Source of the DNA: Terriglobales bacterium
Lineage (GTDB): Bacteria > Acidobacteriota > Terriglobia > Bryobacterales > Bryobacteraceae
DNA: 64,000 bases
Assembly (NCBI GenBank): GCA_021372245.1
Contig: JAJFUV010000287.1
Span: 1-64,000, forward strand
Direction: 5' to 3'
Numbering within the stretch: position 1 is the stretch's first letter; every line of letters starts with the position of its first letter. The notes beneath the pieces were generated by a model, which saw nothing but the letters and a program-made list of their open reading frames with translations, searched no databases and was not told the DNA's origin. Both the position numbers and the translations under genes were made by a program. This document shows positions 1 through 62,193 of the stretch, piece after piece.

Positions 1-100
1 AAAACACACGCTTCGCGTATGCCATAATGCGAGGTCCTTCGTGCAAATTCCTCTCCCGGATGGCGAGGATCTCTCCGACAATGTCTCTAGGCTTCGACAT
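1..100 (-). CDS. HEPN-domain protein, 5' fragment cut by window edge
   Basis: The first 33 codons of a gene read leftwards off the window. They are identical to the start of the HEPN-type gene at 58501-59253, so the product is presumably the same ribonuclease-like protein, but the part with the catalytic motif is not in the window. The start codon (complement 98-100) lies 12 bases inside the cassette boundary ACACAAC, as in the complete copy. It is either a second copy of the cassette or a contig end that shares a repeat. Confidence 0.6.
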   Translation of the reverse strand, partial: MSKPRDIVGEILAIRERNLHEGPRIMAYAKRVF

Positions 101-121
101 ATTAATATTTCACACAACGAT
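1..121. repeat. 121-base exact repeat of 59154-59274
   Basis: Bases 1-121 match 59154-59274 without a difference and then diverge. The match contains the first 33 codons of the HEPN gene, its short leader and the cassette boundary ACACAAC, and ends three bases after that boundary. The break falls where integron strand exchange would occur if cassettes point to the minus strand. The match starts at base 1, so its full length is unknown. Confidence 0.95.
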
Positions 122-214
122 CAAGGTCTGGCAACCCAGCCAGCGCCACAGATGCCCGAAAAACAGAAATAAACTCCCACGCTGGCAGGGGTTGCCAGCA
201 CCGACTTGTTATGC
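112..214 (-). other. attC-like recombination site 1
   Basis: This is an imperfect palindrome with outer 7-mers ACACAAC (112-118) and GTTATGC (208-214). The inner arms, near 130-153 and 179-198, pair through GGCAACC. On the minus strand the right arm reads AACAAGTCGGTGCTGGCAAC, the consensus shared by the other sites. GTTATGC reappears inverted as GCATAAC at 522-528, which marks the cassette 208-528. Confidence 0.85.
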
Positions 215-588
215 CTCTTAGAGTTACCATTGAATTGATCCAACGGGGGGACGAATCCCGCAAAAGAAAGCTCGCTGTCGTGGACATCGAGAACGACGGC
301 ACAGCTGGCGACATGCGCGGCGGTGGCGATTTTGGAAACTACCTCGTAAGGGCGTCCGCCGAAATGCAGGGCGGCTTTGATGAGTTCGCAGCCTTCACAA
401 TGGGGCCGCTTAAACGCGGCGACTACATCGACACGGCGATTGATATTCTGGCCGTGATGCACTCCGCGAGGATGCCGCGCCGTGGATTCATCACGGGCCG
501 CGTCGAAGTGGATAATTCTGGGCATAACACGTTATTAACCCACCCATGCCAAACTTCCGAAAACAACGCGATGAACGCAAAAGACTGA
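211..588 (+). CDS. Cassette gene, unknown function
   Basis: I do not recognise the family. The protein (125 aa) is soluble-looking, with a well-mixed acidic/basic composition over residues 1-105. The ATG is part of the cassette core GTTATGC, so there is almost no leader. The cassette ends at 528; the last 20 codons (from Asn-Thr-Leu-Leu) are read from the attI-like sequence and recur at the end of the unrelated cassette gene at 61616-61897, so they are unlikely to be functional. The opposite strand is also open (121-525), but its translation looks like a shadow. Confidence 0.6.
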   Translation: MPLRVTIELIQRGDESRKRKLAVVDIENDGTAGDMRGGGDFGNYLVRASAEMQGGFDEFAAFTMGPLKRGDYIDTAIDILAVMHSARMPRRGFITGRVEVDNSGHNTLLTHPCQTSENNAMNAKD

Positions 589-20100: not shown

Positions 20101-23100
20101 ATCACCTTGCCGGAAGATGATCGTTACATGGAAGAGTTCCTGCCGCTCGACCCAATCACGCGCGACGGCGACATGAAATTCTACTTTTCCGACAAGCCAA
20201 CGGAGTTTGACACCCTATCAGAAGCGCAGGATTACGCCAACAACATCATCATCGAAGCACTCAAGGAAAAAGCTCCGAGCTCGATTTTCGGCAGTGATTC
20301 AGACGCGCAAAACATCGCCCGCCAAATCTTTGATTCCTTCCCATCACTACCATCCATCACATCGCCCTGGCAACCCAGCAAATGGGGATCGTGGTATCTC
20401 GAATTTAAAGACGAAGAAGGCACCATTCAAAAACTCTCTATCCGCGACCACAGCGCCACGCGCGCCGACATGGGGCTGCCAGACAAATCCTTCTTCGTTT
20501 CCAAACAGTGGAACCCGGAAGAAGTCGGTAACGCGCTTTTTGCCGCTCTTGAATACATAAACGAAAAATCCCCGGCGCGGGCGGCGGAAGCCGCAGATAT
20601 GCCGGATGGCAGGGAAACCGCGTCGGGGACGGGCCAAACTGGCGTTCTTTGGTCTTCCCCGTCAAGTGATTCCGACCCGGTACAAATCGCCTTGGCCAAA
20701 ATGCCGCCGATCTACCGGGAAGTCTTCGAGGCGATCGAGGGCGGCGCAAGCGTCACGGAAGTGACCGGGCGCTTCAACATCACGCCGCGCGCGGTTGACA
20801 ACATCCTCAACGCCGTACGGAGCCGGATCGCCACGGCGAGCGCCGCATCCAAGCCCTTCGGACTGGAACCGCGCACCGTGGGCGGAAAGATGGTCGGCGG
20901 CGGTCGTCCGGATCTGGCGCTTGGGGCCAACCCGCAAGTCGCCGCGGTGGATCAAATCCGCAACGAGTCAGGCATTCCCGGTGTGCGCGGATGGGCGGAA
21001 GTCTTTGCCGAAGCGGATGCCATGCTCGCCAAGGACTACGACGGCACCTATGAGGCGCTTCTGAGCAAGGCGCGCGACCTGCAACCCATGACGGACACGG
21101 AGATTGCCGCGGCCAAGCGCATCATTTCCCGCGAGACTCTGGCCGGGAAGATCCAGACCACGGCGGAGCGGGTGAATCTCGGCATGCTGATCCACGGATA
21201 CCGGGACATCGGCACCGAAACCGCCCGCAGCCTGGCCATCCGCCGCGATCCGCACTTGTCGCCGGCAGAACGGCACGCGCGATTCATCGCGGAAGCGCTC
21301 TTCACCCCGGACCCCGCCACCCGCGCCCGCATGCGAAAGAAAAACGCCAGCGCCGAAGAAATTCTCGCTGGCTGGATGAAGCGGGTGGACAGCATCGAAA
21401 AGGAACTTCTCGCCCAAGGCATCGACATCCGCGCCGCCCTCGAAGAGTTCAACGACCAGCAGGAAGCCCGGAAACAGTCGGAAGCGGAAAGCCCGCGCGC
21501 CGCGGCCGTGATCGATGAGCAGATCCGCAAGCTCAACCGCCGCGAGAAAGCCGTGATCGAGGCGATCCGTTCCGGCGCACTGGTCACCAAGGCCGCATTC
21601 ATCACCGGCCTGTCCGTCGAGGAAGTGAAGGCCATCTATTCCCGGTTCCTCACCGACATCCGCAGCGCCATGGCGGAAAGCGCCAAGCGCTACCTTGCCG
21701 GCGCTCTCGGTTCCTCGCCCATGGACACGATGGCGGAAATCCTGATGGATCTGTCCCTGCCGCCCTTGGAAATGATCGATGACAGCCAGCCCGGCTTTGT
21801 CGATCGCCGCGGGGAGAAACCGCGCAAGCCACGGAAACCGCGCGCCAAGAAGGAAGGCGAGACGGAAACCAAGAAGCCGAAAAAACCCGCCGCACCCAAG
21901 CCGGAAGGCGTGGAACTCACCCCGGAGCAACAGGCCCGACTCGATGAGGATTGGCAGCGATTCCTTGATTCGGACCTGTCCACCTGGAAGGCATACTACA
22001 AGGGCGAGCGCAACCGCTGGCCGTGGACGAAAGAGCAACAGCTTCGCTTCGAGGACAAGGCGCAGGCCATCAAGAAAGACTGGTCAAAACAGAAAGACCT
22101 CTTCACGGAGCGCGAGGAAGTTTCCACCACCACCGGCACCTTCGACATTCACGATCCGGTCAGCATGCTCAAGGTCGCGGAAGCGTTCATGGTGGCGCGA
22201 GGCGGCAAGGTCGATGCGATCATGGAATACTGGCGCATGTCGATTCTGAGCGGCATGCAAACCCATGTCGTAAACATCGGATCCACCGCACTGAACATCG
22301 GTTTCAACCTCGCCCCGCGCCGGGCGCTCGAAGCCATGGTCAACACGCTCATCCGCTCGGACAAATCCGCCACCTTTGGCGAGTTCAAGCCGATGGTCCG
22401 CGAAGTCACCAACGCCTGGCGCTTGGCGGCCCGCAACGCCGTGCGCTCGTGGCAACTCGACTGGCTGGGAAGCCGCGTGTTCGACCAATACGCCAACGCC
22501 GAAGTGCTACAACTCGACTTCACCGGCACCGCTCAGGCGGATTTCATCCCGCCGGCTCTCGGCGGCAAGTTCGGCAAGGTGATGCGCTCCATCTCCTTCC
22601 GCGCACTGCAAACCGCCGATACGTTCCTCAAGTCGTTCTATAGCCAACTCGAAGCCGCGGCCCAAGCCCATCGAATTGCCGCCGTGGAAGAGAAGCTGAA
22701 AGGCGCGGCCTACGATGCCCGCCTGGCGGAACTCATGATTCCCGGCAGCGTGGCATGGGTCCGCGCCTTGGACGGTGCCAAGGTGGCAGCCTTCCAGAAA
22801 GACATGGCCTTCGAGGGCATGGGGCTGAAAGCCATGGCCGACAAAGCCAAGGAAACGCCGGTTCTCGACATCATGGTGGATTCGATGATCTACGTGCTGC
22901 AAGTGTCGCGGAATCTGCCGATCATCGGCCGCCTCTCCACGTTCTTCATGCCGTTCCTCGTCACCCCGGCGAACATCAACAAGCAGGCCATCGGCTACAC
23001 GCCCATGGGTGCCTTCGTCAACCTGGTGGACGCCACCCGAGCGCTCAAGCGCCGGATCTTCAAGGGCGACATGAGCAAGGCCGAAGCCATCAAGGAAGCC

Positions 23101-24159
23101 GCCGCGCTCTACGACCGGGCAAGACTCGTGCAGGACGTGACCAATCAAGTCATCGGTCTGGCGGTTCTCGCCGTGGTGGCCGAACTGGCATGGCCGGATG
23201 ATGATGATGAATTGCCATGGATCACCGGCACCACCCCCTACAAGACCACCCGCCGCGGCGAGCGGGACAACGCCTATGCCGTGATGCCGCCCATGTCCAT
23301 CCGCCTGCCGGGTGGCGTGGTCTTCTCCTATGCCCGCTTCGAACCGTTCTCGACCTCGGCCGCCTCCATGGTCGATTTCGTGGTGGCACTCAATCGCCAA
23401 GGCGGCATGACTCCCGCGGCGCTGGCTGACTGGTCGATCCGGTTCAAGGACCGGATCAAAGACCAATCATTCATGCAGGGGCTCTCCAACTTGTTCAATG
23501 CCGTCGAGGATCCCGACCGCTGGGGCGAACGTCTCGCCGCCAGCACGCTCACCGGATTCGTTCCCAACATCATCCGCCAGCCGGTGCGGGAAATGGATAC
23601 CGAACTGCGCGACTCGTCGCCGCGCGAGCAAGACGGGCTGTTCACGTCGCTGGCCAAGAGCATCGGATTCAGCGTGGTGCCGCAGGCCGCGCCGGTGAAG
23701 CAAACCGTGTGGGGCGAGGACATCCCGACCAACCGCGGCCAGTCTATCGGCCCGCGTGCCGTCGATGCCGCCATCCGGATCTTCGATCCCACCAACCTCA
23801 CCTTGAATCCGCAGGCCGATCCGATCGACCGCTGGATTTACCGCTGGAACCTCCGCACCCCGCTCAAGGAAAACCGCATCGTGATCGAGCCGATCAAGGA
23901 CAAGATCACCGGCCGGATTCCCGGCGAGAAGAAGGACCGGGTGCTGCCGCTCACTCCGCAGGAGCAAGCGGACGCCAACCGCCGCGCCGGCCGCATGGCG
24001 CGCGAAGTCCTCGGCAACGATTGGGCAGACCGCCCGCTCGGCCCGGAGGATGCCTTGCGCATCAAGGAAACCGTCAGTCAGGCCCAAACGATGATCCGCG
24101 CGGAACTGCGCCAGCGAAAGATCATGGAATTGATTGAAAAAGGCCCGCCGGCGGAGTAA
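5134..24159 (+). CDS. Giant polyvalent protein (6341 aa; protease-, ParB-, zeta-toxin-, methylase-, helicase- and ART-like parts)
   Basis: One frame stays open for 19 kb. In order: an N-terminal Ala/Lys/Glu-rich coiled-coil part; a hydrophobic glycine-rich stretch near 680-705; a HEVVH metalloprotease-like motif near 1489; a DdrB/ParB-like domain from about 1813 with SGNGRRNAL; a zeta-toxin-type kinase with P-loop GGGAGKSS near 2485; an N6-methylase-like domain with LEPAGGIGHF near 3104 and SNVPFAN near 3168 (NVPF where NPPF is usual); an SF2 helicase with GVGGGKT near 3776, DEVH near 3944 and QRDGRVYRQG near 4304; an A+T-rich ADP-ribosyltransferase-like block at about 4705-4925; two sigma-4-like helix-turn-helix parts near 5190 and 5475; and a C-terminal large-polyvalent-protein-type region with membrane segments near 5920 and 6000. 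P1 DarB also joins a methylase and helicase and is packaged and injected; a similar antirestriction/ejection role is inferred from the position between terL and portal. Confidence 0.85.
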   Translation: MSSRFRRSDPEAEVQAYLDEVRAGRAGQDPRAQTLARSQSPRAQKTGQRMLDDRADANLRQIEDDQRAADQAAEDAAKAQEQAAKDAAKAMEDERKRNVRAMAAQGAVVETDVESGKRTIATHADGAPKFEAGPLGRVEPVAEVRPTLVDGETGEKRTVPNLDIMMGGGAGSDAIGATGSEKQTVFGQQVRDDRGRVSIVEPKIETDKDTGRQTFDQKNPVTGKTETQTVGYDWDAREKAARAAKIDADTQAVALEINALDQQRAQFEPRWQPVKAEYLKAKSELESLPSPLIQRGSTWVKVDERTGKESLATPQEIAYQKKVREQAQARFERAKAAYEPLAGQNETLTKAERDATARRLQVGEEKIRLEAGLPDKDAETLTRALAVQTEAVPDPEAEAVKQAVAPPAAPAAPTSGQAAAPPAKPLVPKDALNADTFAAAFSGIVKPESLTLGLSGDGYRMIQRNGTTIGSIEDSGGAPVVVLNAGLNEDLRAVAALGGTKGVPVYLADGNRQPLAKEAAWATQAIQQAQQAEQAAGYSFTDRMNAREAALQLAGADLPTINRKLRSGEISMQVAETLAKTLHGETFQVADPLAPESFQGWQAENPDKAEAWSKAQASRDIQGMNAVKSAFISDWYAKNQHKPGVTWSMMQAARKAAAVTGTAGDRAADGVKTLGGTLVDAGGSMIGLMAAYPTLAGMGAAVMAQDVFGSGSDGDLGVAYRDMLEARGRANKNFVRGLETNRQKWFTGEGKKATGNLQAALFDFRAAVATRDVYPDGIADPRYQAKFNKALGKVTDAAHALHSLNLEDGWAMTRDDVDPNKDRVLGASLANYIETGDPEAFQQFQRRLLLDKGSREAEGWNQDLVAGQGRFAAAVIGGVAANDFESVIEIASNLATAGVAKAIQTGGKMVSASKLAGAGRVARFGQQVAKDFHKLGMVADTLAKPASKGGKILNQSVKLGKATLAQGLSEGAEGGVAELGNPEATGASVLEAAAIEGLAGIVMGPIMSGPTMAAAQSRQNFDIAAQAQKLVDAYNKTGANDPDFKPITRDQAIVAMEMAQNPARKEALDRLEAAKVELELANNELAGTGAKLASVRREGQEAAAAVPGDQNADTTARADALKAWQEDNARQEQAAQAGKQNAASRYSKALAAYTSAFRDVANIQGSAMEIAASTAGMSPAERAQVIGLAKVAFGKADTLTSTERSAIAGKTTIEGLPYFETTASGTEVLTDAGRADIQRLFPVLGGKIATPQSLALFEAARQSPAATGAPTASLPAGQGGAQAPSTPSPTTAPNGQNTQGPTGQQTAATTAQPAPANANAPGGTVRDGAGQADPANGAGEQAAPSPVSGSAAAMDAAEYAALRAQDPSLPDIPAVVAAARAAGQPVSPSMEKAAGQTVSGNGQPVSQTDRLSPARQLAEQIKARVEAAMPSMKGRIVVSEEASGGGGADLVIETGQIRLMVPDVARALEKLGGDTAAAMESLENIVARHEVVHVVQTDLIRAEWEAANRPGSFSDFFIQWYADLAPELLTKDAVKAARTLYGENAWDRIPTDGQKTAEFVRMLVEAKLEGDTSKFSELFRAVKTRGAKSKLAKLMQAAIAALRKMKLTPAAEAHVSRLVELHRELTEGAPQDTANPAESPQAAATGLRVQATGNTARIFDGETLLWEGPADQAQAELASLKAAQSSPMVLTGAAIKAAIERFPRLRGKLRADLEAAADDVIDAIEALPPEERAAAAEKAIADRINLIADREAERTGKAREEVIEGFRAVAGKRAAKQAASIEQAVIGTEAPQVPAGRQERRDTPNSEMTVDVTSTFVDLDQLIGSSDPLFPGGALQPRNRASQASANQREEMVQNIRDKDDQHRRYLEGATTDSGRIVVAPLFAADGTHMTNDAGKPLFYVISGNGRRNALQEASARKVAGKIDKGFRETAAAEGIDTEGMTLPVPVSVFVPTSAKEAIDLAEYSNRDAQLSVSNTEQANRDAASIEKAGILKLWEPDASGDPGAASNRDFVRAFARAVGDEGIVDGRGNLTEEGGKRIERAMVAMLLGPEQADLLDILFNQSGTYGLRAILGGIASETGSLLKVASEKPDFDLSPVLADALRTAVQAKAALVAGEIRDVGEFFDQGNLFESTDNSTPERQLARALVESRSRKAVREILGAYRRGAEAVDTGTMSMFAEAETTREDLILKALEARPIEQVAAEVEAEFGSKSDLARKLNLAVAGVKKLDAGQRRDFVAAIGAEVERLRGGIYSAEEWQRLNPDALTPKAALFQRFLDSHTPETIQSGLNRLLSKPAQTVLASSALGSHRFSEYLEAAKSLLREKLPAEPAGLKDVPKISISPAELARQVAGLTKDTMLGIGNRRAVLGSSPFEDPRLTEVFGENYKADEYGLPAIPKTLPDGHPLLQQTDKKEFAEIAENHPLVIGMDPRNELVRDLPEDHPARLGGFLKPGKMPRKQFHDAVIKFFMSLGTPLPDGVRPTVYATGGGGGAGKSSILRYLKERGDLDTTGAIPVNADEIKSMIPEWDLFIQAKDGRAAGVVHEESSILAKRLVETILNNGWRYSFIYDATLANTEKAIGMFGKWRNNGYFVHLIGVSIDPREAIIRAILRGRKSWRWVPVEELTKAHAGFNRGVMALAKAAHFVNIFDNTPPKPHEIAKKIGDKEQISIVNQEYFGRIQSRERQIQPQSDGQSETLPGGLARQDPERSGRDRPSGDRAGAQVQPQGRSADQTLGSSPAPELDLFGAIEAQITGPRAKTKRNALAAAKAQPEGSKARENIGKRVAAIEGLADLDLFAAASVRSLDAKPKKSESAPDGSAPRQPGNPLDPQLHGGQPAKGTRGAGTVGGNQDLFDWSGRPGAEAGGTSRQPAASDVQGTDAGLRGSGDGSAATNPDLGGRGSGPGRPAESGEGGGSDSGNAGRDGGKRSLTQRQRPKAGTPERNFEITPNTVLAEGGAVTRIRNNVAAIDLLRTLEREDRNATAEEKAVLAKFVGWGGLPQVFDEENARKVEQGEAETRRETARRYESYGAQYENLRASYREQADAIDKWNEKWGDHYRKLRELLTPEEWESARESIINAHYTSPTVISSMWDAVRRLGFKGGNVLEPAGGIGHFYGLMPQDMMDTSRLFGIELDSVSGRIMGKLYPEAEMEITGFQDSTLPDNSQDLVISNVPFANINVTDEWLAAQPDAPAFNLHNYFFERALRKTRPGGLVAFISTANTMDAQIKQRKWLAERSDFMGAIRLPNNAFKGNANTEVVTDIIFLRKPDGSPNPMAAEQWTSTEDVALDNGETIDINEYFARHPEMILGRLANDGSMYGGKKEMTVHGSGDLKAQLAEAVAKLPENVIGGGEAVDIERDSKQAAGAKDGAFIEENGKVRIKGDLDPVPTKELGRVRSFIKLRDTLNELYRLEADPAATDSQIAAQRAALNRAYDGHKAVYGTLHERANKKTLETDPDFYRTLGLEVPLEKKALRKQEYRKADVFSKRILSPRVPPKSADSVDEAVIHSFRWKGRLDAGYVGKLLGIPLEAAESRLLETTAAFRDPASGRIEHATNYLAGNVRRKLRDAQQAAAGDPAYQRNVEALERVMPPPVPWSDIHFKMGSAWIPADVYERFMAEKLFNGRRNARVLYHKGVGDLIGDSFEVQQGVTGYSNSVDVQWGTPRLSATQIVEYVLNQKDPRVYDTVDKKRVYNQAESDKARAAAERMTEAFLEWVSASPELQTDLHRIYNESFNSHVVPQYDGSFMQLPWVASDFDLYPDKKHVVWRALQEGTLLVAHGVGGGKTIIGTAIAMESRRLGLAKKPLIVVHNATLEQFATTISTMAPTARVLVARKEDLAGPKRKEFMGRVRSGDWDAVVMAHSTYDLIPDDPAWERKQTDDLVKELEDAIREQDVDPDADLKKIKDPSVKELVKMRRRLKDRIANLQTRRTDDVLTFQELGIDALIVDEVHRYKKLPFVTRQSNIAGIDTGFSKRGSAMQLRAKWVQAINQGRGVFTMTGTPVTNTVGEAWNMVRLVRPDLLQEFGVKTFDRFVSVFGNITQGGELRPNGSWKAVTRLSKFTNIPEWNRFWGLAADVKMGDDMQVKGRPKIKGGKPALTVVERTPGVGAVIAEISRVIDSYDMMTGREKAMNRHIPLLTYAAARMAAIDIRLINPDAADEPTSKVNTALKNVMRLYHETTEHKGTQVLFADSYRPLKTTKLDLSAAEFDMIADDETAPAKDDEDEGFNLYHDIREKLVAAGVPRSEIAIITEAKNDKAREAIFAKVNSGEVRIILGSTETLGTGVNMQQRMIAAHHLDVPWTPAGLEQRDGRVYRQGNLWAELGREIEIMRYGMKDTLDAALWQKLETKERFIKQAVSGKINERVIEDDDGLLNYMEQKAALSGPDGMLKFTLDEKVRGLKNEWRAHRNRQFDLQRTGDLASRTIQSIDDALADARRVAKVAEPLANVDPMEVEWSVEGGKALKGEDAREAIDAAIKERRKKAGAIMNPESAPTMREPLHVTANGVPLVLQVVSITEDIAHANNPDLRWQFTWAPTLETAMKNPGRHSPHPRSLMGESVALATRLFTQPASLEANRSRAQSDIEMVAKEGAKPFGKAVDFAQALLDQAKLYKRMGIASPEAQDVYQAAFGAEWESQLKAAENPDTPPPSGPRAETPETYPGKGLAPAMATLGSSAGLDSRGNPQGIDTNQPGGANIGDAASPSSVVTPEMDAAYLDALANGNLYEANAIMLEAAGKAGAFSWDDGTPKVLLHGTVYEYDVSEINLENAGQGHPASTGENLLFMTLDGGEAAKYAGYENFNELEDLYDAWNDGLAETQPSELKEYYQGEEGRVFPLFVFPKKLRTLPGKNGKYNFVRLNGLAEKLISSGRADAILMKDTVVTYLGQNPADHMVVGNVNLVRSAATVLRDESGNIILLSQRFNQSPGASSPESMSLGSSPTPDADPVQTSFVRAIATARRELDKRRADRNTVSIQWELDADRLAEDGEEYHYPSITLPEDDRYMEEFLPLDPITRDGDMKFYFSDKPTEFDTLSEAQDYANNIIIEALKEKAPSSIFGSDSDAQNIARQIFDSFPSLPSITSPWQPSKWGSWYLEFKDEEGTIQKLSIRDHSATRADMGLPDKSFFVSKQWNPEEVGNALFAALEYINEKSPARAAEAADMPDGRETASGTGQTGVLWSSPSSDSDPVQIALAKMPPIYREVFEAIEGGASVTEVTGRFNITPRAVDNILNAVRSRIATASAASKPFGLEPRTVGGKMVGGGRPDLALGANPQVAAVDQIRNESGIPGVRGWAEVFAEADAMLAKDYDGTYEALLSKARDLQPMTDTEIAAAKRIISRETLAGKIQTTAERVNLGMLIHGYRDIGTETARSLAIRRDPHLSPAERHARFIAEALFTPDPATRARMRKKNASAEEILAGWMKRVDSIEKELLAQGIDIRAALEEFNDQQEARKQSEAESPRAAAVIDEQIRKLNRREKAVIEAIRSGALVTKAAFITGLSVEEVKAIYSRFLTDIRSAMAESAKRYLAGALGSSPMDTMAEILMDLSLPPLEMIDDSQPGFVDRRGEKPRKPRKPRAKKEGETETKKPKKPAAPKPEGVELTPEQQARLDEDWQRFLDSDLSTWKAYYKGERNRWPWTKEQQLRFEDKAQAIKKDWSKQKDLFTEREEVSTTTGTFDIHDPVSMLKVAEAFMVARGGKVDAIMEYWRMSILSGMQTHVVNIGSTALNIGFNLAPRRALEAMVNTLIRSDKSATFGEFKPMVREVTNAWRLAARNAVRSWQLDWLGSRVFDQYANAEVLQLDFTGTAQADFIPPALGGKFGKVMRSISFRALQTADTFLKSFYSQLEAAAQAHRIAAVEEKLKGAAYDARLAELMIPGSVAWVRALDGAKVAAFQKDMAFEGMGLKAMADKAKETPVLDIMVDSMIYVLQVSRNLPIIGRLSTFFMPFLVTPANINKQAIGYTPMGAFVNLVDATRALKRRIFKGDMSKAEAIKEAAALYDRARLVQDVTNQVIGLAVLAVVAELAWPDDDDELPWITGTTPYKTTRRGERDNAYAVMPPMSIRLPGGVVFSYARFEPFSTSAASMVDFVVALNRQGGMTPAALADWSIRFKDRIKDQSFMQGLSNLFNAVEDPDRWGERLAASTLTGFVPNIIRQPVREMDTELRDSSPREQDGLFTSLAKSIGFSVVPQAAPVKQTVWGEDIPTNRGQSIGPRAVDAAIRIFDPTNLTLNPQADPIDRWIYRWNLRTPLKENRIVIEPIKDKITGRIPGEKKDRVLPLTPQEQADANRRAGRMAREVLGNDWADRPLGPEDALRIKETVSQAQTMIRAELRQRKIMELIEKGPPAE
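13175..13333 (+). CDS. Nested out-of-frame ORF a (possible small protein)
   Basis: A GTG-started 52-codon frame lies one base out of phase inside the giant gene, just after the zeta-toxin part. Its translation is natural-looking (LKPFPADWRAKIQKDQDATD, a helical charged protein). Over the same bases the giant frame gives an Arg/Gln/Ser/Gly-rich string typical of a shadow frame. It could be a separate gene, perhaps an antidote to the zeta part, or a relic of a gene absorbed into the giant ORF. Confidence 0.4.
   Translation: MKDKSNPNRMANLKPFPADWRAKIQKDQDATDQAVIERAHKSNLKVDPPIKR
13577..13918 (+). CDS. Nested out-of-frame ORF b (possible 113-aa protein)
   Basis: An ATG-started frame, in the same phase as nested ORF a, encodes 113 well-mixed helical residues (SILSYMEDSQPRALVALAQS early, then an acidic EEEDPDPDDL). 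The giant frame over these bases is a Gly/Ser/Ala linker. It ends at a TGA just before the methylase-like domain begins. Function unknown; the contrast between the two frames is the evidence for coding. Confidence 0.45.
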   Translation: MEALQDSQAIRSILSYMEDSQPRALVALAQSGEIKTYLTGLADQVQKQAERLANQPHPMFKGRTLGYEEAEMEALQQILTSEEEDPDPDDLRKAVKVADRIREMLDATAENAA

Positions 24160-42314: not shown

Positions 42315-43361
42315 TCACCGGAAGAACGCCTTCCCCTGCGCCTCGGTGACCGCCCGCCGGTAGTGCCGGAAGAGCGTACTCGAGCCCGCCGCGTGGCCAA
42401 GCACTGCCTTGGTCGCATCCTCCCCGTAGGCCGCAAGGTGGTGGCTGGCGAAAGTGTGCCGCAGCGCATCCTGCAAATGGCCAATGCCGGCATCCTTCCG
42501 GATCCTCGCCCAGCGCCGCTTCCAGTTGGCAGGAATCACCGTGCCTTCCTTCGGGTGACCTTTCAGCGCGCGGCGCAACACCGGCCGGATGGGAATGATC
42601 CGGTCGGCCCCGGTCTTGCTCGCGTCCGGCGGGACGTAGATTTCCGTCTTGCTGACGTTCTCCCAATCCAAGCGCGCGATTTCCCCGCTTTCCGCGTCCG
42701 GGCGGATCCCGGCATAGAGAAGCAGCGCCACCGCCCGGCGCTCATCATCGCCCTGGCAGGCGGCAAGAACGGCCGTTTGCTGGTCTTCGGCAAGAATCTG
42801 AATCTCGGTGGTCTTCCGGTGGCGCTCCCGGAAGCCAAGCACGGCCAGAACGTAGCGGGCGCGCATGTCGATCGTGGAGCGCTTGATCACCCGCTCTTCC
42901 TGCAAGGCTTCCTCGATCCGCTGCCGGTCGATCGCTCCGCAGGCCACCGGCATCAGCGACGGCACCCACCGCGGCACCCGCTCCATGTCGGACCGGTAGC
43001 GGTCCCGCCAGTGTTCCTCACCCCAAAGCATCGCTCTGGCGTAGCGGTCGCGGAACGTCTCTTTGCTGGCCGTAGTGGCGATTCTGGCGACAGCCAAGCG
43101 GGCCGCCTCGACCAGCGACACCCCGGAGCCTTCGAGGATGCGCGCCGCTTCGGCGGCCTGGTGGGCGAGAGATAGCGGGATCATCGCCCCGCGCACCCCG
43201 GCGGTGTGCTGCTGCCGCAGGGTGGCGGCATACTTCTCTGCCGCGGTCTTGCCGGGGAAATACTTCCGGCGACGCTTGCCGGTGGCGGTCATGCCGGCAG
43301 GGATCGAGACCATCCACCCGCGGGGCGTCTCGACAGCGTGGAACTCGGGAACTCTGGCCAT
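42315..43361 (-). CDS. int: Phage integrase, tyrosine recombinase
   Basis: 348 residues from the ATG at 43361. The catalytic set is visible: Arg in LYAGIRPDAESGEIARLDW, LRHTFASHHL, LGHAAGSSTLFRHYRR. The N-terminal RKYFPGKTAAEKYAATL resembles an arm-binding domain. There is no extra block between the Lys strand and LRHTF, so it is not an integron-type IntI. A longer frame to 43436 would overlap the arm-type sites, so the shorter start is preferred. It lies next to the tRNA-derived attP core. Confidence 0.9.
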   Translation of the reverse strand: MARVPEFHAVETPRGWMVSIPAGMTATGKRRRKYFPGKTAAEKYAATLRQQHTAGVRGAMIPLSLAHQAAEAARILEGSGVSLVEAARLAVARIATTASKETFRDRYARAMLWGEEHWRDRYRSDMERVPRWVPSLMPVACGAIDRQRIEEALQEERVIKRSTIDMRARYVLAVLGFRERHRKTTEIQILAEDQQTAVLAACQGDDERRAVALLLYAGIRPDAESGEIARLDWENVSKTEIYVPPDASKTGADRIIPIRPVLRRALKGHPKEGTVIPANWKRRWARIRKDAGIGHLQDALRHTFASHHLAAYGEDATKAVLGHAAGSSTLFRHYRRAVTEAQGKAFFR

Positions 43362-43368
43362 GGGAGTG

Positions 43369-43564
43369 TCGCCACAATCGCCACTTGGCGGAATGTCGGC
43401 TTGGTTTTCCTTGTGTCCAAATGTTCGGAAAATCAAGGAAAATGGAGCCGGCTGAGGGACTCGAACCCTCGAACCTGCTGATTACAAATCCGCAAACACG
43501 CTTTGATTGTCAACGTGTTGCGCTGGCGCTTTGCAGAATCGCCACCATATCGCCACTTGGCGGA
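43369..43564. other. Phage attachment site attP (tRNA-Thr 3' half) with arm sites
   Basis: Core 43443-43490 reads, on the minus strand, as the 3' half of a tRNA: anticodon loop TTTGTAA (TGT, Thr), T arm GAGGGTTCGAGTCCCTC, acceptor AGCCGGC and TCCA. The 5' half of a tRNA is missing. Matching repeats flank it: TCGCCACAATCGCCACTTGG (from 43369) and TCGCCACCATATCGCCACTTGG (from 43539, given here as motif TCGCCAC twice), both ending GGCGGA. These are probable integrase arm sites. Integration into a host tRNA-Thr gene is inferred. Confidence 0.8.
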
Positions 43565-57153: not shown

Positions 57154-58046
57154 TCGCGGAACTCATGGAAACGATCAGCTATCTCCGCCGCGGCCGGAAG
57201 CTGCGCGCCAGTGGGGCCGTAGTCGAGCGAGACGAGGCCACGCGCATGACCAAGGTGAAGCCGGCCCGCGACGGCTGGGGCATGGTATGGCTGGACGAAA
57301 CCGAGATCGAGGCGGGCCGCGAGAAGCCTCCGACAAGGCCGAGGGAGAAGCGTGACACCGCGGAGCCGAAACCGATTCAGAAGCCAAGAAAGCCAAAGCC
57401 GAAGCCAAGCCAAGCCGCCGCCGGCGACATGCTGCCGATCGATCCGGAGCCATCCCCGGCCATCCGCGAGGGACAAGCGCTGATCCAGATTGCGCAAGAG
57501 CGAGGCGAGTTTGTCACCGACGTGGACGGCTTCGTCTATTGGTGGCCAAGCGCTAAGCCAGAACATGCCGGGCACTTAGCCGCGCATCAACTCCGCTGGT
57601 TGGCCGACGAACTAGACCGCCGGAATGCCGAGTGGAATCGGCGCATCGATGAATACTTTGAGAACGACAAGGATCTGGCGCGGCGGGCGCTAGACTCCGA
57701 ACAAACCAAACAGGCAACTTCCTGCTGTTGCCAGCATCCACTTGTTCTCATTCTTATGGATATCATCGACCACTACACACGCTCAGGACTCATATCCGAC
57801 CCAACGCGACACTTCCGCCCGTGCTACGGCTGCGGCGAGCAATTCCACCCCGACGACATGCACACCATCGATATCGACAAATATGGCGAGCATGACACGG
57901 CGGAAATCTGCGACGGGTGCAAAGAGGGTCACACCGATACGCCACGAATCGCGGACATCGATTTTGATGCTCTGAATCTTGATGAGAACGCCCATGTGGA
58001 CGCACGGATACCAGCGTCCCGAGACTCCGAATCCATAACCGACTGA
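57150..58046 (+). CDS. Phage protein fused in frame to the first cassette gene
   Basis: 298 codons. Residues 1-185 are a phage protein (GFVYWWPSAKPEHAGHLAAH, then LADELDRRNAEWN, a common phage motif). From about 186 the frame crosses attC-like site 2, adding an odd Cys-Cys-Cys stretch, and then enters the cassette gene whose own ATG is at 57756. The natural stop of the phage gene was probably lost when cassettes were inserted. Whether the fusion is made is unknown. Confidence 0.6.
   Translation: MIAELMETISYLRRGRKLRASGAVVERDEATRMTKVKPARDGWGMVWLDETEIEAGREKPPTRPREKRDTAEPKPIQKPRKPKPKPSQAAAGDMLPIDPEPSPAIREGQALIQIAQERGEFVTDVDGFVYWWPSAKPEHAGHLAAHQLRWLADELDRRNAEWNRRIDEYFENDKDLARRALDSEQTKQATSCCCQHPLVLILMDIIDHYTRSGLISDPTRHFRPCYGCGEQFHPDDMHTIDIDKYGEHDTAEICDGCKEGHTDTPRIADIDFDALNLDENAHVDARIPASRDSESITD
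57696..57750 (-). other. attC-like site 2 (outer end of array)
   Basis: TCCGAAC (57696-57702) and GTTCTCA (57744-57750) enclose GGCAAC...GTTGCC. It is the shortest site, 55 bases. GTTCTCA is matched by TGAGAAC at 57983-57989. The left side abuts the phage gene 57150. Confidence 0.7.
57756..58046 (+). CDS. Cassette gene, small zinc-ribbon protein
   Basis: 96 residues. CYGCGEQFHPDDMHTIDIDK and ICDGCKEGHTDTP carry two CxxC pairs, a zinc ribbon; the rest is acidic. The start is nine bases after the cassette core GTT, and the last 19 residues are read from attC-like site 3. Function unknown. Confidence 0.6.
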   Translation: MDIIDHYTRSGLISDPTRHFRPCYGCGEQFHPDDMHTIDIDKYGEHDTAEICDGCKEGHTDTPRIADIDFDALNLDENAHVDARIPASRDSESITD

Positions 58047-58083
58047 GACGCTGGTATCCGTTGCGTCTCACGACTTGTTAGCC
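57983..58083 (-). other. attC-like site 3
   Basis: TGAGAAC (57983) and GTTAGCC (58077). The inner arms ACGGATACCAGCGTC and GACGCTGGTATCCGT pair perfectly over 15 bases; the minus-strand right arm has one extra A (GCAACGG against GCACGG). Confidence 0.85.
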
Positions 58084-58093
58084 TCTTCTATTT

Positions 58094-58441
58094 ATGACAA
58101 CGACCGAACTCACCAAATGGCTCCGCGAAAATTCGTCTGGAGCGTATCGCCCTGCCGCTGAAGCTGCCGATCTTATCGACGATCTAGTGAAGAGATTCAC
58201 AAAGTTCGACAAGCCGAAATACTCAGGTGACTCGATGCTGGATGCGGTCCTTGGAACCCCGAACGCGGACTTCCGCACTTGGGTGGATTCGCTGCCGCCG
58301 TCGTATTGGGCGCGATACGATCTCAGTGCTGCTCGGATCGGATGGGAAGCCGCGTTCAAATTCATTCAGGCTAACGTAAAGCGCATGCACCCCTACCAGC
58401 GAGAGCGGAAGGGTAATACACCGGAAGGAAACGAATTATGA
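58094..58441 (+). CDS. Cassette gene, phage-type hypothetical protein
   Basis: 115 residues. It has helical segments and SYWARYDLSAARIGWEAAFK, a phrase common in small phage accessory proteins of the Ea22 kind. It starts 17 bases after GTT, and the last 21 residues come from attC-like site 4. No function known. Confidence 0.6.
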   Translation: MTTTELTKWLRENSSGAYRPAAEAADLIDDLVKRFTKFDKPKYSGDSMLDAVLGTPNADFRTWVDSLPPSYWARYDLSAARIGWEAAFKFIQANVKRMHPYQRERKGNTPEGNEL

Positions 58442-58496
58442 GTGATCGTCGAAACAGAACGGCTGATAGGGGTTGTCATGGCGCGACTTGTTGTGT
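58369..58496 (-). other. attC-like site 4
   Basis: GGCTAAC (58369) and GTTGTGT (58490). The arms ATGCACCCCTACCAGC and GCTGATAGGGGTTGTCAT pair with one bulge. The loop is similar in sequence to that of site 5 (shared GATCRTCGAAACAGAACGGC), so these two attC sites are recent relatives. Confidence 0.85.
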
Positions 58497-58500
58497 GTCT

Positions 58501-59253
58501 TCATTTATTATTGCTGGAGGGTGCTGGCGCACTGCCCGACGGGGTAGAGGGTTCGATTCCTTCATTGGCTATCTGGGTTCGAATCCCAGCTCCAGCACTC
58601 TTTATCGCTTCGGATACAACTCGGTCGTAAGCACTGATAAGGAGAAGGCAAAACTTGGCACGTCGAACCATGGTAGAAGAATCCACTTCCTGCTGAGGAT
58701 CAAGCTCGTGGGCAAACACATGTCGAAGCGTAAATGTGTCCTGCAATGTCGCCACAAACTCGTCATAAATCGAATCCACTTCAATGACGAACTGATCGTT
58801 CTTGAATACAACCTTCCTTGCGAGCGGAACAACTTTGTAGCCGATCACGGCATCAAGGTTGGATATCAGATCCTCAATGCGGTTGCAGGATACGAAATGA
58901 GCAATGATCTCACCAGCGGTCAATCGCTGGGAAGCGATGGCCATAACAAGGTCGTGGTCAAACTTGGTGATCTTAAGATCCTTCGAATTGGAAGCGAACG
59001 GCTCGCCAACATCCACCAAGTCACGAATCGCAAGGCGCATCCATCCTTGAACCGCTGCAACCAATGCAATCGGAATGTAGCGATATGCCTCAACTCGACG
59101 ATCCTCTTTGTCCCACTCTTGCTTCGCCCATTGCTCGGAAAGATGAGTAAGGGAAAACACACGCTTCGCGTATGCCATAATGCGAGGTCCTTCGTGCAAA
59201 TTCCTCTCCCGGATGGCGAGGATCTCTCCGACAATGTCTCTAGGCTTCGACAT
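58501..59253 (-). CDS. Cassette gene, HEPN-domain RNase-like protein
   Basis: 250 residues, all-helical in character. LRHVFAHELD at 176-185 gives Arg177-x4-His182, the RX4-6H catalytic motif of HEPN ribonucleases, which cut RNA in toxin-antitoxin, abortive-infection and Cas systems. No antitoxin (MNT) is adjacent. Its start is 12 bases inside the cassette and its stop 4 bases from the other boundary, so it fills the cassette and reads with the inferred attI-to-attC direction. From residue 219 the frame runs antisense through a tRNA-like sequence, so the C-terminal 32 residues may be acquired. A defence or lysogen-protection role is inferred. Confidence 0.7.
   Translation of the reverse strand: MSKPRDIVGEILAIRERNLHEGPRIMAYAKRVFSLTHLSEQWAKQEWDKEDRRVEAYRYIPIALVAAVQGWMRLAIRDLVDVGEPFASNSKDLKITKFDHDLVMAIASQRLTAGEIIAHFVSCNRIEDLISNLDAVIGYKVVPLARKVVFKNDQFVIEVDSIYDEFVATLQDTFTLRHVFAHELDPQQEVDSSTMVRRAKFCLLLISAYDRVVSEAIKSAGAGIRTQIANEGIEPSTPSGSAPAPSSNNK
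58513..58597 (+). other. tRNA-like sequence antisense to the HEPN gene end
   Basis: The 85 bases fold with acceptor GCTGGAG (58513-58519) and CTCCAGC (58590-58596), T arm CTGGGTTCGAATCCCAG, and a second T-arm-like hairpin GAGGGTTCGATTCCTTC where the anticodon arm should be (loop TTCGATT). The D region is too long. It looks like a degenerate or chimeric tRNA, perhaps a former integration site. Confidence 0.5.
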
Positions 59254-59274
59254 ATTAATATTTCACACAACGAT
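59154..59274. repeat. Second copy of the 121-base repeat at window start
   Basis: Identical to bases 1-121. It covers the start of the HEPN gene and the cassette boundary, and ends three bases into attC-like site 5. Confidence 0.95.
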
Positions 59275-59391
59275 GAGCACATCCACCACTACCAGCGGGA
59301 GCGAGTGGCGGAAACACAGGAAGGGGGCGAGTCATGAAAGATCATCGAAACAGAACGGCTGGTAGTGGTTGGATGATGCGGCTTGTTCGCT
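59265..59391 (-). other. attC-like site 5
   Basis: ACACAAC (59265) and GTTCGCT (59385). Arms CATCCACCACTACCAGC and GCTGGTAGTGGTTGGATG pair with a single bulged base on the right arm. The loop is shared with site 4. Confidence 0.88.
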
Positions 59392-59411
59392 TTCTTGTTT
59401 CTTTGTGCGAC

Positions 59412-59948
59412 TCACCAAAGATGGTCAGTTCTTACTGTGGTTGTGGTGCCTTCGAGCAAGTGCGGGTGTATGTGGAGGTAATTCCACGCGATCTCACTGA
59501 TGTTGTGTGCAAACCCATTGGCGACATCTCCCAATTGAGTGGAACGATAAATGATCCCGCAGGATACAAGACTCTTAACGATGCCATCTTGAATGCGAAG
59601 GCTATTGGCGCGAGTATTGTGACGGATGTAAAACCTGAGGATCTGCTTCTCGTCTTCGGTGAGACTGTGCAATCGCTTCGTGATGCGTTGAAATGCTTTC
59701 CGATCCCGCCAGATGCTCTTGATTCTGTCGATTACGAAACTTCCTACGGATACAAGCAACAATGCGAGCGAGGAAAGGAAAAGAACCCCCAAAATAGGGC
59801 GATAATTCTTTGTAAATTCAGTGAGTCCAAGAGTCTTACGAAAATCATCACTTCCAAAAAGCAGTATCCCTACCACAAGTCCAATCGCTATGAGGTAGCG
59901 TGGAGCGAGCTTGATAAATTCGAGCAACATCTTGAGGAAGTCAGGCAT
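59412..59948 (-). CDS. sieB: Cassette gene, SieB-type superinfection exclusion protein
   Basis: 178 residues. FIKLAPRYLIAIGLVVGILL (first membrane segment, about 11-34) and YRPILGVLFLSSLALLLVSV (second, about 49-70), then a soluble helical part (HSLTEDEKQILRFYIRHNTR), match the SieB family, inner-membrane proteins of temperate phages that abort infection by other phages. It fills its cassette: start 12 bases inside one boundary, stop 21 from the other. The DNA is more A+T-rich than the phage core. The plus-strand frame over it is a shadow. Confidence 0.75.
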   Translation of the reverse strand: MPDFLKMLLEFIKLAPRYLIAIGLVVGILLFGSDDFRKTLGLTEFTKNYRPILGVLFLSSLALLLVSVGSFVIDRIKSIWRDRKAFQRITKRLHSLTEDEKQILRFYIRHNTRANSLRIQDGIVKSLVSCGIIYRSTQLGDVANGFAHNISEIAWNYLHIHPHLLEGTTTTVRTDHLW

Positions 59949-59959
59949 CTTAATTTTCT

Positions 59960-60083
59960 AGCGAACGTCCAAGTGGAGGGACCGGCGGGGAGCGCCACGT
60001 CGCCGAAGCCAACCAACTTGCCTCTATGAAAAAGCAAACTAACAACGCCGTTCCGCTGGTTCCTCTCGCACGCCTTGTTCGCC
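59960..60083 (-). other. attC-like site 6
   Basis: AGCGAAC (59960) and GTTCGCC (60077). The right arm on the minus strand, AACAAGGCGTGCGAGAGGAA, pairs with the left arm through GAG-GGACC-GGCGG with bulges. It is the weakest-paired of the long sites. An ATG in its loop (60026) opens the next gene. Confidence 0.75.
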
Positions 60084-60349
60084 CATCAGATGTCGCTGGC
60101 GTGCAGCTAGGCTGGCATGAGTTAGAAGTTGCGCTTGATGCGATATTGAAGATTTGCGTCTCCAAGGGTAATTCGTTTGAGGAATGTTTCATGGCCTCGG
60201 AAATCGATTCAGATACCGCGCGCGACGGATTTGCCGCACTGATAGCACAAGGGTTGTTGGTTCAGCCGGATCTAGGCGGGAGGGGCGGACCATGCCTGTT
60301 TTGTCTGAGCGATGAGCTTGTAGAGAAATGTAAGCCGAACAAGGCGTGA
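60026..60349 (+). CDS. Cassette gene, hypothetical winged-helix-like protein
   Basis: 107 residues if the ATG in the attC loop is used. The natural-looking part begins after the cassette core (GVQLGWHELEVALDAILKIC; GFAALIAQGLLVQPDLG; GPCLFCLSDELV), the order of a winged-helix domain. The N-terminal 17 residues are coded by the attC arm, so a start downstream is possible. Function unknown. Confidence 0.5.
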   Translation: MKKQTNNAVPLVPLARLVRPSDVAGVQLGWHELEVALDAILKICVSKGNSFEECFMASEIDSDTARDGFAALIAQGLLVQPDLGGRGGPCLFCLSDELVEKCKPNKA

Positions 60350-60468
60350 GACACAATCCCCACCACTAACACCACAAGACCATGCCAAACGATAAACCAT
60401 TGCCGGAGCCGAAAAAAGTATCCCAACCGGAGACTGGTGGGGATTGTGTCTCACGCCTTGTTCGGCTT
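60332..60468 (-). other. attC-like site 7, perfect 34-base inverted repeat
   Basis: 60332-60365 and 60435-60468 are exact reverse complements over 34 bases, including GCCGAAC and GTTCGGC, with a 69-base loop. All other sites have mismatches and a bulge; this one has none. Symmetry would remove the strand discrimination normally given by unpaired bases. Confidence 0.9.
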
Positions 60469-60762
60469 GTGGTTTGCGCTGCTATACGCCACCGTGAGAC
60501 TGGATTCTTGATCTGCGGGGCGCGGCATGGAAACTGCCTGAACGCGGCGGCGCGATACGGCAACGGCGATCAGAAAAGCGAAACGTGGGAATGCGGATTT
60601 GTGGATCAAAACGGCAAGTTCATGGATCGACGAGAGGCGTGGGCGGTAGCAGATGCCGCTGGTCAAATTCGTCGTCCATGTGGATTCGAGCGTCATTACG
60701 ACGACCAACGTGCAGCCAATGTTGGAGACTCCGCGCTGCTATTCAGCGAGAATTTATATTAG
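60382..60762 (+). CDS. Cassette gene, phage accessory-type protein
   Basis: 126 residues from the ATG in the loop of site 7, or about 97 from GTG 60469. The natural part (FLICGARHGNCLNAAARYGN, then ECGFVDQNGKFMDRREAWAV and ADAAGQIRR) is a common small phage protein type. It ends exactly at the cassette boundary. Function unknown. Confidence 0.6.
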   Translation: MPNDKPLPEPKKVSQPETGGDCVSRLVRLVVCAAIRHRETGFLICGARHGNCLNAAARYGNGDQKSETWECGFVDQNGKFMDRREAWAVADAAGQIRRPCGFERHYDDQRAANVGDSALLFSENLY

Positions 60763-60849
60763 CCGAACGATTGAGCCCATGCACGCCGACCCTCCAAGCC
60801 CGAATCCAAGTGCAACGCCATCGGCGTTGCATGCGGCGGCTTGTTCTGA
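60762..60849 (-). other. attC-like site 8
   Basis: GCCGAAC (60762) and GTTCTGA (60843). Arms CCCATGCACGCCGA and TCGGCGTTGCATGCGG pair with one extra base on the right arm. Confidence 0.85.
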
Positions 60850-60856
60850 GGTTGCC

Positions 60857-61060
60857 GTGATCCTGCAATTCCCGGCCCTCGAAAAATGCCGCGACTGCGC
60901 TGGATCTGGCCTGACGTGGAACATCCAACGCCGGACCAAACGCCAGCAAGTCGGAAGCACCTGCCAGACCTGCCGAGGCACGGGCCGCGTCCGCAACACC
61001 GAGCCGGTCATCGTGGATGATCCTCAGAACGAAACAAGCGCTGGCACCGCGAGCAAATGA
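60857..61060 (+). CDS. Cassette gene, DnaJ-type zinc-finger protein
   Basis: 67 residues from GTG 60857. CRDCAGSGLTW and CQTCRGTGRV are two CxxCxGxG repeats, the zinc finger of DnaJ, here without a J domain. The last ten residues lie in attC-like site 9. ATGA overlap with the next gene couples their translation across a cassette boundary. Confidence 0.6.
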   Translation: MILQFPALEKCRDCAGSGLTWNIQRRTKRQQVGSTCQTCRGTGRVRNTEPVIVDDPQNETSAGTASK

Positions 61061-61124
61061 GCACGCCCATGGACACGAAACAGGAAAGCGAAATCGCGGT
61101 TGATCCAGCCGCGGCTTGTTGTGC
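61024..61124 (-). other. attC-like site 9
   Basis: TCAGAAC (61024) and GTTGTGC (61118). Arms GCTGGCACCGCGA and TCGCGGTTGATCCAGCC pair with bulges; the minus-strand right arm reads AACAAGCCGCGGCTGGATCA. Confidence 0.8.
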
Positions 61125-61431
61125 ATTGCGTGAACTCGCCGAAAGATGGGAAGTCGAGGCGTCGCGGATTGATTCCGACACTGGGGAAACCTACCCGGAT
61201 CAGGACAAAGCCGAGGCGGATCTTGGATGGGGATCAGCCGCAGGGCTGAGAAAAGCCGCTGATGAACTGCGGGGGATTCTCGCGGAAATCGACCAAACGC
61301 GAATCCAGCTCAGCGATACCCGAAAGGGTTGCCCGAAGTGTGGATCATGGCGATTCATGCCGTCAGTGAGCGGTAACGATGGATACTGCGAAACGTGTCA
61401 CGAGCGCGTTTCTATTATGCACAACTCCTAG
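61057..61431 (+). CDS. Cassette gene, C-terminal zinc-ribbon protein
   Basis: 124 residues. A helical part (LRELAERWEVEASRIDSDTG; GLRKAADELRGILAEIDQTR) is followed by GCPKCGSWRFMPSVSGNDGY and CETC, a four-cysteine ribbon. The ATG lies in the loop of site 9, so the first 22 residues come from the attC arm; TTG 61124 is an alternative start. Confidence 0.6.
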   Translation: MSTPMDTKQESEIAVDPAAACCALRELAERWEVEASRIDSDTGETYPDQDKAEADLGWGSAAGLRKAADELRGILAEIDQTRIQLSDTRKGCPKCGSWRFMPSVSGNDGYCETCHERVSIMHNS

Positions 61432-61505
61432 CTCATGCACCCGCCCTCTATGACTCCGAACCAACAACAGACGCCCAGCGGGTTGCATGAAGCGACTTGT
61501 TCGAC
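61419..61505 (-). other. attC-like site 10
   Basis: GCACAAC (61419) and GTTCGAC (61499). Arms CTCATGCACCCGC and GCGGGTTGCATGAAG pair with one bulged base. GTTCGAC is matched by GTCGAAC at 61831-61837, the last cassette end before the attI-like site. Confidence 0.87.
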
Positions 61506-61626: not shown

Positions 61627-61897
61627 AATGATAAAACCAAGTTGCCGCCGGATGAAAGACGGATGGGCACCAGCACTGGAATATGACAACGGTGGTGTCG
61701 TAATCGCAGCGATCCGATGCGGAACGATGAACGAAGCACTTCGGGAATCGTCTGAAATGCTTGGGTGCATGTCCGATTACCCGGATGCGTTTCGCTACAA
61801 CCACCCAGCACCGAACCAGTTGATTGATCTGTCGAACACGTTATTAACCCACCCATGCCAAGCTTCCGAAAACAACGCGATGAACGCAAAAGACTGA
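61616..61897 (+). CDS. Cassette gene, hypothetical protein
   Basis: 93 residues. MKDGWAPALEYDNGGVVIAA and AIRCGTMNEALRESSEML form a small alpha/beta domain. The last 19 residues are read from the attI-like sequence and equal the tail of the unrelated gene at 211-588, an effect of two cassettes inserted at the same site. Confidence 0.5.
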   Translation: MKTEMIKPSCRRMKDGWAPALEYDNGGVVIAAIRCGTMNEALRESSEMLGCMSDYPDAFRYNHPAPNQLIDLSNTLLTHPCQASENNAMNAKD

Positions 61898-61913
61898 GAT
61901 TCAGCGCGATGGG
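61831..61913 (-). other. attI-like site, copy 2, with cassette junction
   Basis: Cassette end GTCGAAC (61831-61837) followed by ACGTTATTAACCCACCCATG and onwards, the same sequence as at 529-604. Identity with copy 1 begins at the AAC of the junction, as site-specific recombination predicts, and fades inside the downstream gene. Confidence 0.7.
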
Positions 61914-62193
61914 AAAGGCATCTCAGCGCGTGCAATCAGAGCGTCGAATGCAAGCTGCTGCCGAGAATGCTGCCATGATGGCCGAATACGATGTCTGGAA
62001 CCTCCCTAGAAAAACCGGCGATGCACTTGGGTGTCTGCAATGGCATGACTTCCGATCCGGGAAGGTCCGCAAGTGGATCATTCGGATCGGGGAGAGGCGC
62101 GACCGAATTACCGTTGAATCACCATGCACCGCACGGACATCTAGCCACGGATGGACGTGGTTTCTAACCAAACTTCGAAAGCACATCAAATGA
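61855..62193 (+). CDS. Small basic phage protein, attI-overlapping paralog B
   Basis: 112 residues. It is a paralog of the gene at 546-911: nearly the same first 20 residues (FRKQRDERKRLRFSAMGK), then a shared KTGDALGCLQWHDFRSGKVR motif. Its start is 17 bases from the array and it overlaps the exonuclease gene by four bases. Role unknown. Confidence 0.7.
   Translation: MPSFRKQRDERKRLRFSAMGKASQRVQSERRMQAAAENAAMMAEYDVWNLPRKTGDALGCLQWHDFRSGKVRKWIIRIGERRDRITVESPCTARTSSHGWTWFLTKLRKHIK

Follow-up and report, generated by a model that had tools for sequence, protein, structure and literature searches.

Integron-type gene cassettes in a temperate phage lineage, with a SieB-family gene and a HEPN-like gene as candidate superinfection-exclusion cargo

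An array of integron-type gene cassettes is resident in a temperate-phage lineage, and two of its cassettes, one carrying a SieB-family gene and the other a HEPN-like gene, may serve the prophage by excluding superinfecting viruses. This overall reading, i.e., a phage cassette array with exclusion genes for the lysogen, is given a probability of roughly 55%.

The window, which denotes the whole 64,000-nt stretch of DNA that was analysed, belongs to phage contig C69 (64,767 bases) of a 6.36-Mb metagenome-assembled genome and encodes a large terminase, a DnaB helicase, a DnaC-like loader and an exonuclease. It also encodes a phage-type tyrosine recombinase (42315-43436), which points to a temperate phage. 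The stretch adjoining this phage integrase (43440-43530) resembles a tRNA 3' end and is likely attP; within the genome it matches contig C360 best, at 86% across 51 nt. The phage additionally contains a single ORF of 6341 codons (5134-24159, plus strand).

Integron cassettes, with which bacteria exchange antibiotic-resistance genes, each open with a 7-base box complementary to the R'' box of the attC of the same cassette. Ten attC-like stem-loops, all assigned to the minus strand, are found in the window, nine of them within 57.66-61.5 kb and one at 112-214. When inverted-arm scores were compared with those of 20 shuffled windows (best shuffle, 14.5), five of the ten outscored all shuffled controls and the remaining five did not do so individually. 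The set is convincing because successive boxes match: the pairs are exact in 8/9 cases across the array (permutation P = 1e-5). At the distal end, two sites with paired boxes (57659-57750 and 57983-58083; scores 12.8 and 20.1) enclose a short cassette. Site B (58369-58496; score 16.4; boxes GGCTAAC and GTTGTGT) is the attC of the HEPN cassette, and site C (59265-59391; score 19.7; boxes ACACAAC and GTTCGCT) is that of the SieB cassette, its left box also bounding the HEPN cassette at its start. Site D (59960-60083) has a score within the shuffle range (11.5), and its left box, AGCGAAC, bounds the SieB cassette at its start. Both cassettes are thereby delimited by exact pairs, GTTGTGT/ACACAAC for HEPN and GTTCGCT/AGCGAAC for SieB, which bears out the cassette nature claimed in the original prediction. 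The arms of site E (60334-60466, or 60332-60468 as first delimited by its arms), 34 nt long and 100% complementary, are more perfect than those of any other attC-like site. Three further sites (60762-60849, 61024-61124 and 61419-61505) accompany cassettes with plus-strand ORFs, and the site at 112-214 (score 19.7) lies by a left-end copy of the HEPN cassette, described below.

The last box of the array, GTCGAAC, abuts ACGTTATTA, and together they form an attI-like site at 61831-61860 (minus strand). ACGTTATTA is kept in related phages and the four bases preceding AAC vary, as would be expected of an attI joined to its first cassette. This site (about 61835) points toward the minus strand, so that the HEPN-like and SieB genes stand in canonical cassette orientation, in agreement with the earlier claim; a plus-strand reading of the array was ruled out by the position of attI and by the AACAA side of the attC arms. 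The two minus-strand ORFs, located as predicted at 58501-59253 (250 aa) and 59412-59948 (178 aa), also fill their cassettes as predicted, each ATG lying 15 nt from the cassette boundary and the stops 4 and 20 nt before attC. That these would be the only two minus-strand cassettes is fair for the window, but the 58080-58372 cassette holds a 95-aa minus-strand ORF with the same layout. Most other cassettes have plus-strand genes, co-directional with the phage operon. Collectively, there is very little doubt that the array consists of genuine integron cassettes. The lone tyrosine recombinase of the window matches no integron-integrase model and no IntI gene lies beside attI; the window thus holds an attI and an array, not a complete integron, and mobility of the cassettes in this phage would depend on an enzyme from a relative or from the host.

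The contig forks within the array at 59274/59275, a feature absent from the original prediction. The 5' end of the HEPN cassette (59154-59274) is repeated exactly at 1-121 (minus strand), with a different neighbour on the attI side: the right copy continues into SieB, whereas past the left copy come a further attC, a cassette shared with another phage, an attI and then a gene homologous to the one that flanks attI. The HEPN cassette therefore has two different attI-side neighbours, and the divergence begins no more than 4 nt from the crossover point, as exchange would leave it. An assembly chimera, in which the adjacency of the HEPN-like and SieB cassettes would be artificial, has about an even chance. 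The 121-nt exact repeat at the fork has a k-mer-like length, and the single contig holds two attI sites with anchor genes and two YqaJ-type exonuclease genes; conversely, exchange itself would yield shared sequence at a cassette boundary, and a chimera would affect linkage alone, each cassette being intact by itself. Relatives display both gene orders. The simplest reading is that two phages with a common HEPN cassette were probably merged by the assembler, in which case SieB, together with all cassettes right of it, may come from a second phage. The HEPN-like and SieB genes are each well supported as cassettes; their adjacency in one genome is not.

Related phages were found through the gene flanking attI (61855-62193, plus strand), which has 21 relatives in IMG/VR, most of them with attC-like arrays upstream. 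Among 396 genomes sampled from the phylum it is absent from all except this one, and it thus looks phage-specific. The window and these relatives together provide 44 cassettes with matching boxes, and several relatives show exact box chains. One cassette of the window (204-528) recurs in phage contig L075 with 93% identity, the match beginning and ending at the boxes and being limited to the cassette. Additionally, phage record G549 shows a fork of the same kind, exactly at G|TT. Exchange of cassettes between neighbourhoods is supported by these sequence comparisons, and with the two neighbours of the HEPN cassette they agree with the exchangeable cassettes of the original prediction; the cassettes may be mobile at present. 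An enzyme for this activity could come from within the lineage. The record of L067 encodes a 333-aa integrase-like protein (TIGR02249, 193.8 bits against a cut-off of 265; best PDB match, IntI4), the ATG of which is 27 nt from the G|TTCTCC junction with a cassette. The relatives with an IntI-like gene by attI are G549, L115 and L117; in the two further contigs L115 and L117 the gene is beside an array, and the box chain of L117 extends to it. Overall, divergent integron integrase genes were noticed in phage contigs L109 (1447-2448), L115, L117, L118 and L116, beside attI and arrays in some of them.

The SieB gene (59412-59948, minus strand) was identified through its Pfam match, its hydropathy and its viral relatives. 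The 178-aa protein is a clear PF14163 member by sequence (E 4.9e-30; 104.5 bits against a cut-off of 26), residues 20-161 aligning with positions 2-146 of the 147 of the model, and two hydrophobic segments are predicted from hydropathy in its N-terminal half (residues 8-37 and 48-79), as anticipated for a SieB-like protein with two membrane segments. Viral relatives are 50-57% identical, and the closest (57%, viral contig L011) likewise has attC-like sites on either side and is oriented as in the window. The PHROGs SieB family gives E 0.08, and no PADLOC model matched the protein. A relative in Shewanella adjoins an Abi-family gene. From its family membership, the protein would likely act in SieB-type exclusion.

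The HEPN-like gene (58501-59253, minus strand) is supported by its ORF call, by its homologues and by an R-x4-H motif (R177-HVFA-H182). Residues R177, H178, H182 and E183 are invariant in an alignment of nine sequences, so that the RX4H motif of the original prediction holds. Its assignment to a HEPN family was not upheld at the profile level: the sole Pfam match of the 250-aa protein is PF18735 (HEPN_RiboL-PSP) at E 0.19 and 12.0 bits, under the curated cut-off of 28.4, and on this score the protein is kept out of that family. Profile searches, which had been proposed as the check on both proteins, put PF14163 above its cut-off and PF18735 under its own. The best homologue reaches E 1e-4 (22.7 bits) against PF18735, and a profile alignment with PF18735 members keeps the motif in register (E 0.02, albeit with a low hhalign probability), compared with E 0.56-0.63 for controls. 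Predicted models are all-helical, with pLDDT values (38 from the single sequence and 42 from a six-row alignment) too low for judging the fold. A profile search of the PDB gave no HEPN-related match, and no PADLOC model matched. The protein is accordingly graded here as HEPN-like rather than as a full HEPN; it is nevertheless quite likely a HEPN RNase, with RNase activity as the presumed function.

Homologues of the HEPN-like protein were found on plasmids (E 9e-11 and 3e-10) and, by profile search, in five other genomes; none was found in a peptide scan of viral contigs, a single-sequence scan of genome contigs or the phage records, nor among 297 genomes sampled from the phylum. These homologues occupy mobile or defence-like settings. 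On a Sulfuricurvum plasmid, one homologue sits between genes for a type I restriction protein, a DUF4062 protein and a restriction endonuclease, the Rhizobium homologue (L095) lies among prophage head genes, and the Paracoccus homologue (L097) is near a reverse transcriptase and an integrase, the last two contexts being assigned by reading of ORFs and not from profile matches. A C-terminal LprI-type domain is present in 8/8 homologues and missing from the protein of the window, which could be a truncated relic that has lost this domain. The fusion of the HEPN-like family to an LprI-type C-terminal domain (L023, L024, L022 and L093-L097) apparently constitutes an uncharacterised family. A tRNA-like hairpin (58513-58597, plus strand; fold z-score -3.35) lies antisense to the 3' end of the gene, and no second copy was found in this genome; a tRNA at this position was rejected, as ARAGORN calls none and Rfam scores are under threshold.

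How could such genes serve a phage? Cassettes would enter at the phage attI-like site, by the gene at 61855-62193, and pile up toward the left along the minus strand. Most cassette genes, being on the plus strand, run with the phage early operon, whereas the HEPN-like and SieB genes oppose it. The likeliest role of these two is superinfection exclusion from the prophage: SieB, as a membrane protein, would halt an incoming phage midway in its lytic cycle, and the HEPN-like protein would degrade RNA upon sensing an incoming phage. On induction of the resident phage, expression of both genes would be damped by lytic transcription passing through them on the plus strand. There are precedents. The P22 prophage expresses SieB, which arrests macromolecular synthesis midway in a superinfection (PMC10883804). 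In S. aureus, Tha is a prophage HEPN RNase with an R-x4-H motif; incoming tail proteins switch it on, and an antisense arrangement holds it back (PMC11087260). By analogy with such systems, we infer exclusion, expression in lysogeny and antisense damping. Both genes probably act in shutting out rival viruses, with the chances of a HEPN-based defence in particular standing a little above even.

An alternative is that the cassettes were captured from a bacterial integron and are carried passively, the genes that oppose the phage operon being silent. A sigma-70-like promoter was not found on the minus strand, although the promoters of this host may differ; furthermore, the HEPN and SieB cassettes are distant from attI, silence is an established property of cassettes off the front of an array, and the LprI part of the HEPN-like protein has been lost. 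However, neither reading frame is broken, SieB belongs to a phage family and recurs as a cassette in a second viral contig, and a source of the capture was not found, there being no HEPN-like relative in the sampled phylum genomes, which together render passive carriage unlikely. Still less probable is that the HEPN-like gene is a toxin that stabilises the array as an addiction module and not an anti-phage defence. Toxin-antitoxin pairs commonly include a HEPN toxin, and bacterial integrons are stabilised by cassettes that carry such pairs, according to background cited in PMC9892861; yet the cassette has one ORF, with no candidate antitoxin on the same strand, and the homologues occur as single genes in a mixture of mobile settings.

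Both cassettes are also spanned by plus-strand ORFs (58438-59337 and 59334-60029), each of which begins at an ATG inside one attC and ends in a stop that overlaps the following ATG. These long antisense frames, open from attC to attC over the HEPN-like and SieB cassettes, have a counterpart in L011 (4750-5403, minus strand). The observed numbers of stops versus those expected from base composition are 0 versus 6.0 for HEPN, 0 versus 7.6 for SieB and 0 versus 4.1 for the SieB of L011; the antisense frame is stop-free in 3/7 non-cassette SieB genes too, and three further minus-strand cassette genes gave no discrimination. These counts are only suggestive of selection for open antisense frames. 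That the plus-strand ORFs would be the real genes and the minus-strand ones spurious, as their layout (typical for cassettes of this family) and the stop-free frames might suggest, is ruled out for practical purposes by the minus-strand PF14163 match and by the HEPN-like homologues, which follow the minus-strand frame, the plus-strand ORFs having no Pfam match.

An ATG borne by attC starts the next plus-strand ORF at 58438, 59334, 60026, 60779 and 61057 in the window, and also in L055-L080. Overall, cassette ORFs show a strict stop-start overlap in 19/44 cases and a start inside the preceding attC in 35/44, which looks like translational coupling through the recombination sites. When 46 cassette ORFs were scanned with Pfam, matches were obtained, among others, to Dam methylases, to an N6/N4 methylase, to a Tad2-like domain and to HNH and HTH; most of the 46 are without known function. 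The Tad2-like ORF (Thoeris anti-defence; E 8.9e-23) is probably L075 6845-7159, as assigned by reading from a pooled scan. The methylase and Tad2-like matches indicate that other cargo resembles counter-defence. A broader and more tentative proposal is that the phage lineage might keep a dedicated integron, with its own attI and, in some members, its own divergent IntI, that serves it as an arms-race locus with exchangeable content, in which with-operon cassettes would provide counter-defence (Dam methylases, Tad2-like), opposing cassettes would provide lysogen exclusion genes, and attC would supply the start codon of the next plus-strand gene, wiring any inserted cassette into the operon.

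The claim of a new defence-island format was too strong, since phage arrays (PMC9892861) and anti-phage integron cassettes (PMC12409362) are already published. Temperate and virulent phages carry cassette arrays without an integrase (CALINs), and their attC sites work with IntI1 (Qi et al., 2023; PMC9892861); where that study discusses phage cassettes, the cargo it names is methyltransferases and a toxin-antitoxin pair, and exclusion genes are not among it. The present array resembles those CALINs in its attC-bounded cassettes, in the frequent lack of an integrase and in DNA methyltransferase cargo. In contrast to them, it lies beside a phage-specific attI-like site common to many viral contigs, some relatives carry an IntI-like gene beside attI, and two cassettes hold exclusion-type genes. 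Anti-phage cassettes in bacterial integrons were described by Darracq et al. (2025) and in a companion study, as reviewed in PMC12409362; defence genes are there similarly compacted into single cassettes and shuffled by the integron, whereas here the carrier is a phage and the beneficiary would be the prophage. Tha/Ith (PMC11087260) shares with the HEPN-like gene a prophage location, the R-x4-H motif and an antisense arrangement, but is a mechanistic analogue only: Tha is encoded in the cI operon and not in a cassette, and its antisense partner is a defined inhibitor protein. Similarly, SieB of lambda and P22 belongs to PF14163 and has predicted membrane segments, whereas SieB in the window is borne by a cassette, opposes the phage operon and is much diverged, as its PHROGs score indicates. 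As far as the open-access literature shows, exclusion-type genes as phage cassettes, a lineage-wide phage attI and an IntI-like gene in the lineage are new.

If true, one phage lineage maintains a site for cassette exchange, beyond the chance pick-up of stray cassettes, and places immunity and counter-immunity genes there, which would allow fast swapping of superinfection-exclusion genes among phages. It would also offer a testable system in which the integrase, the attI, a set of defined attC sites and the cargo are all at hand. Many small unknown proteins of the array can moreover be screened for anti-phage or anti-defence activity. Many regularly spaced attC-like sites were additionally noticed in a viral contig outside the anchor-gene set (IMGVR 3300032156_000999; L041 2538-4428 and L053 214-1973).
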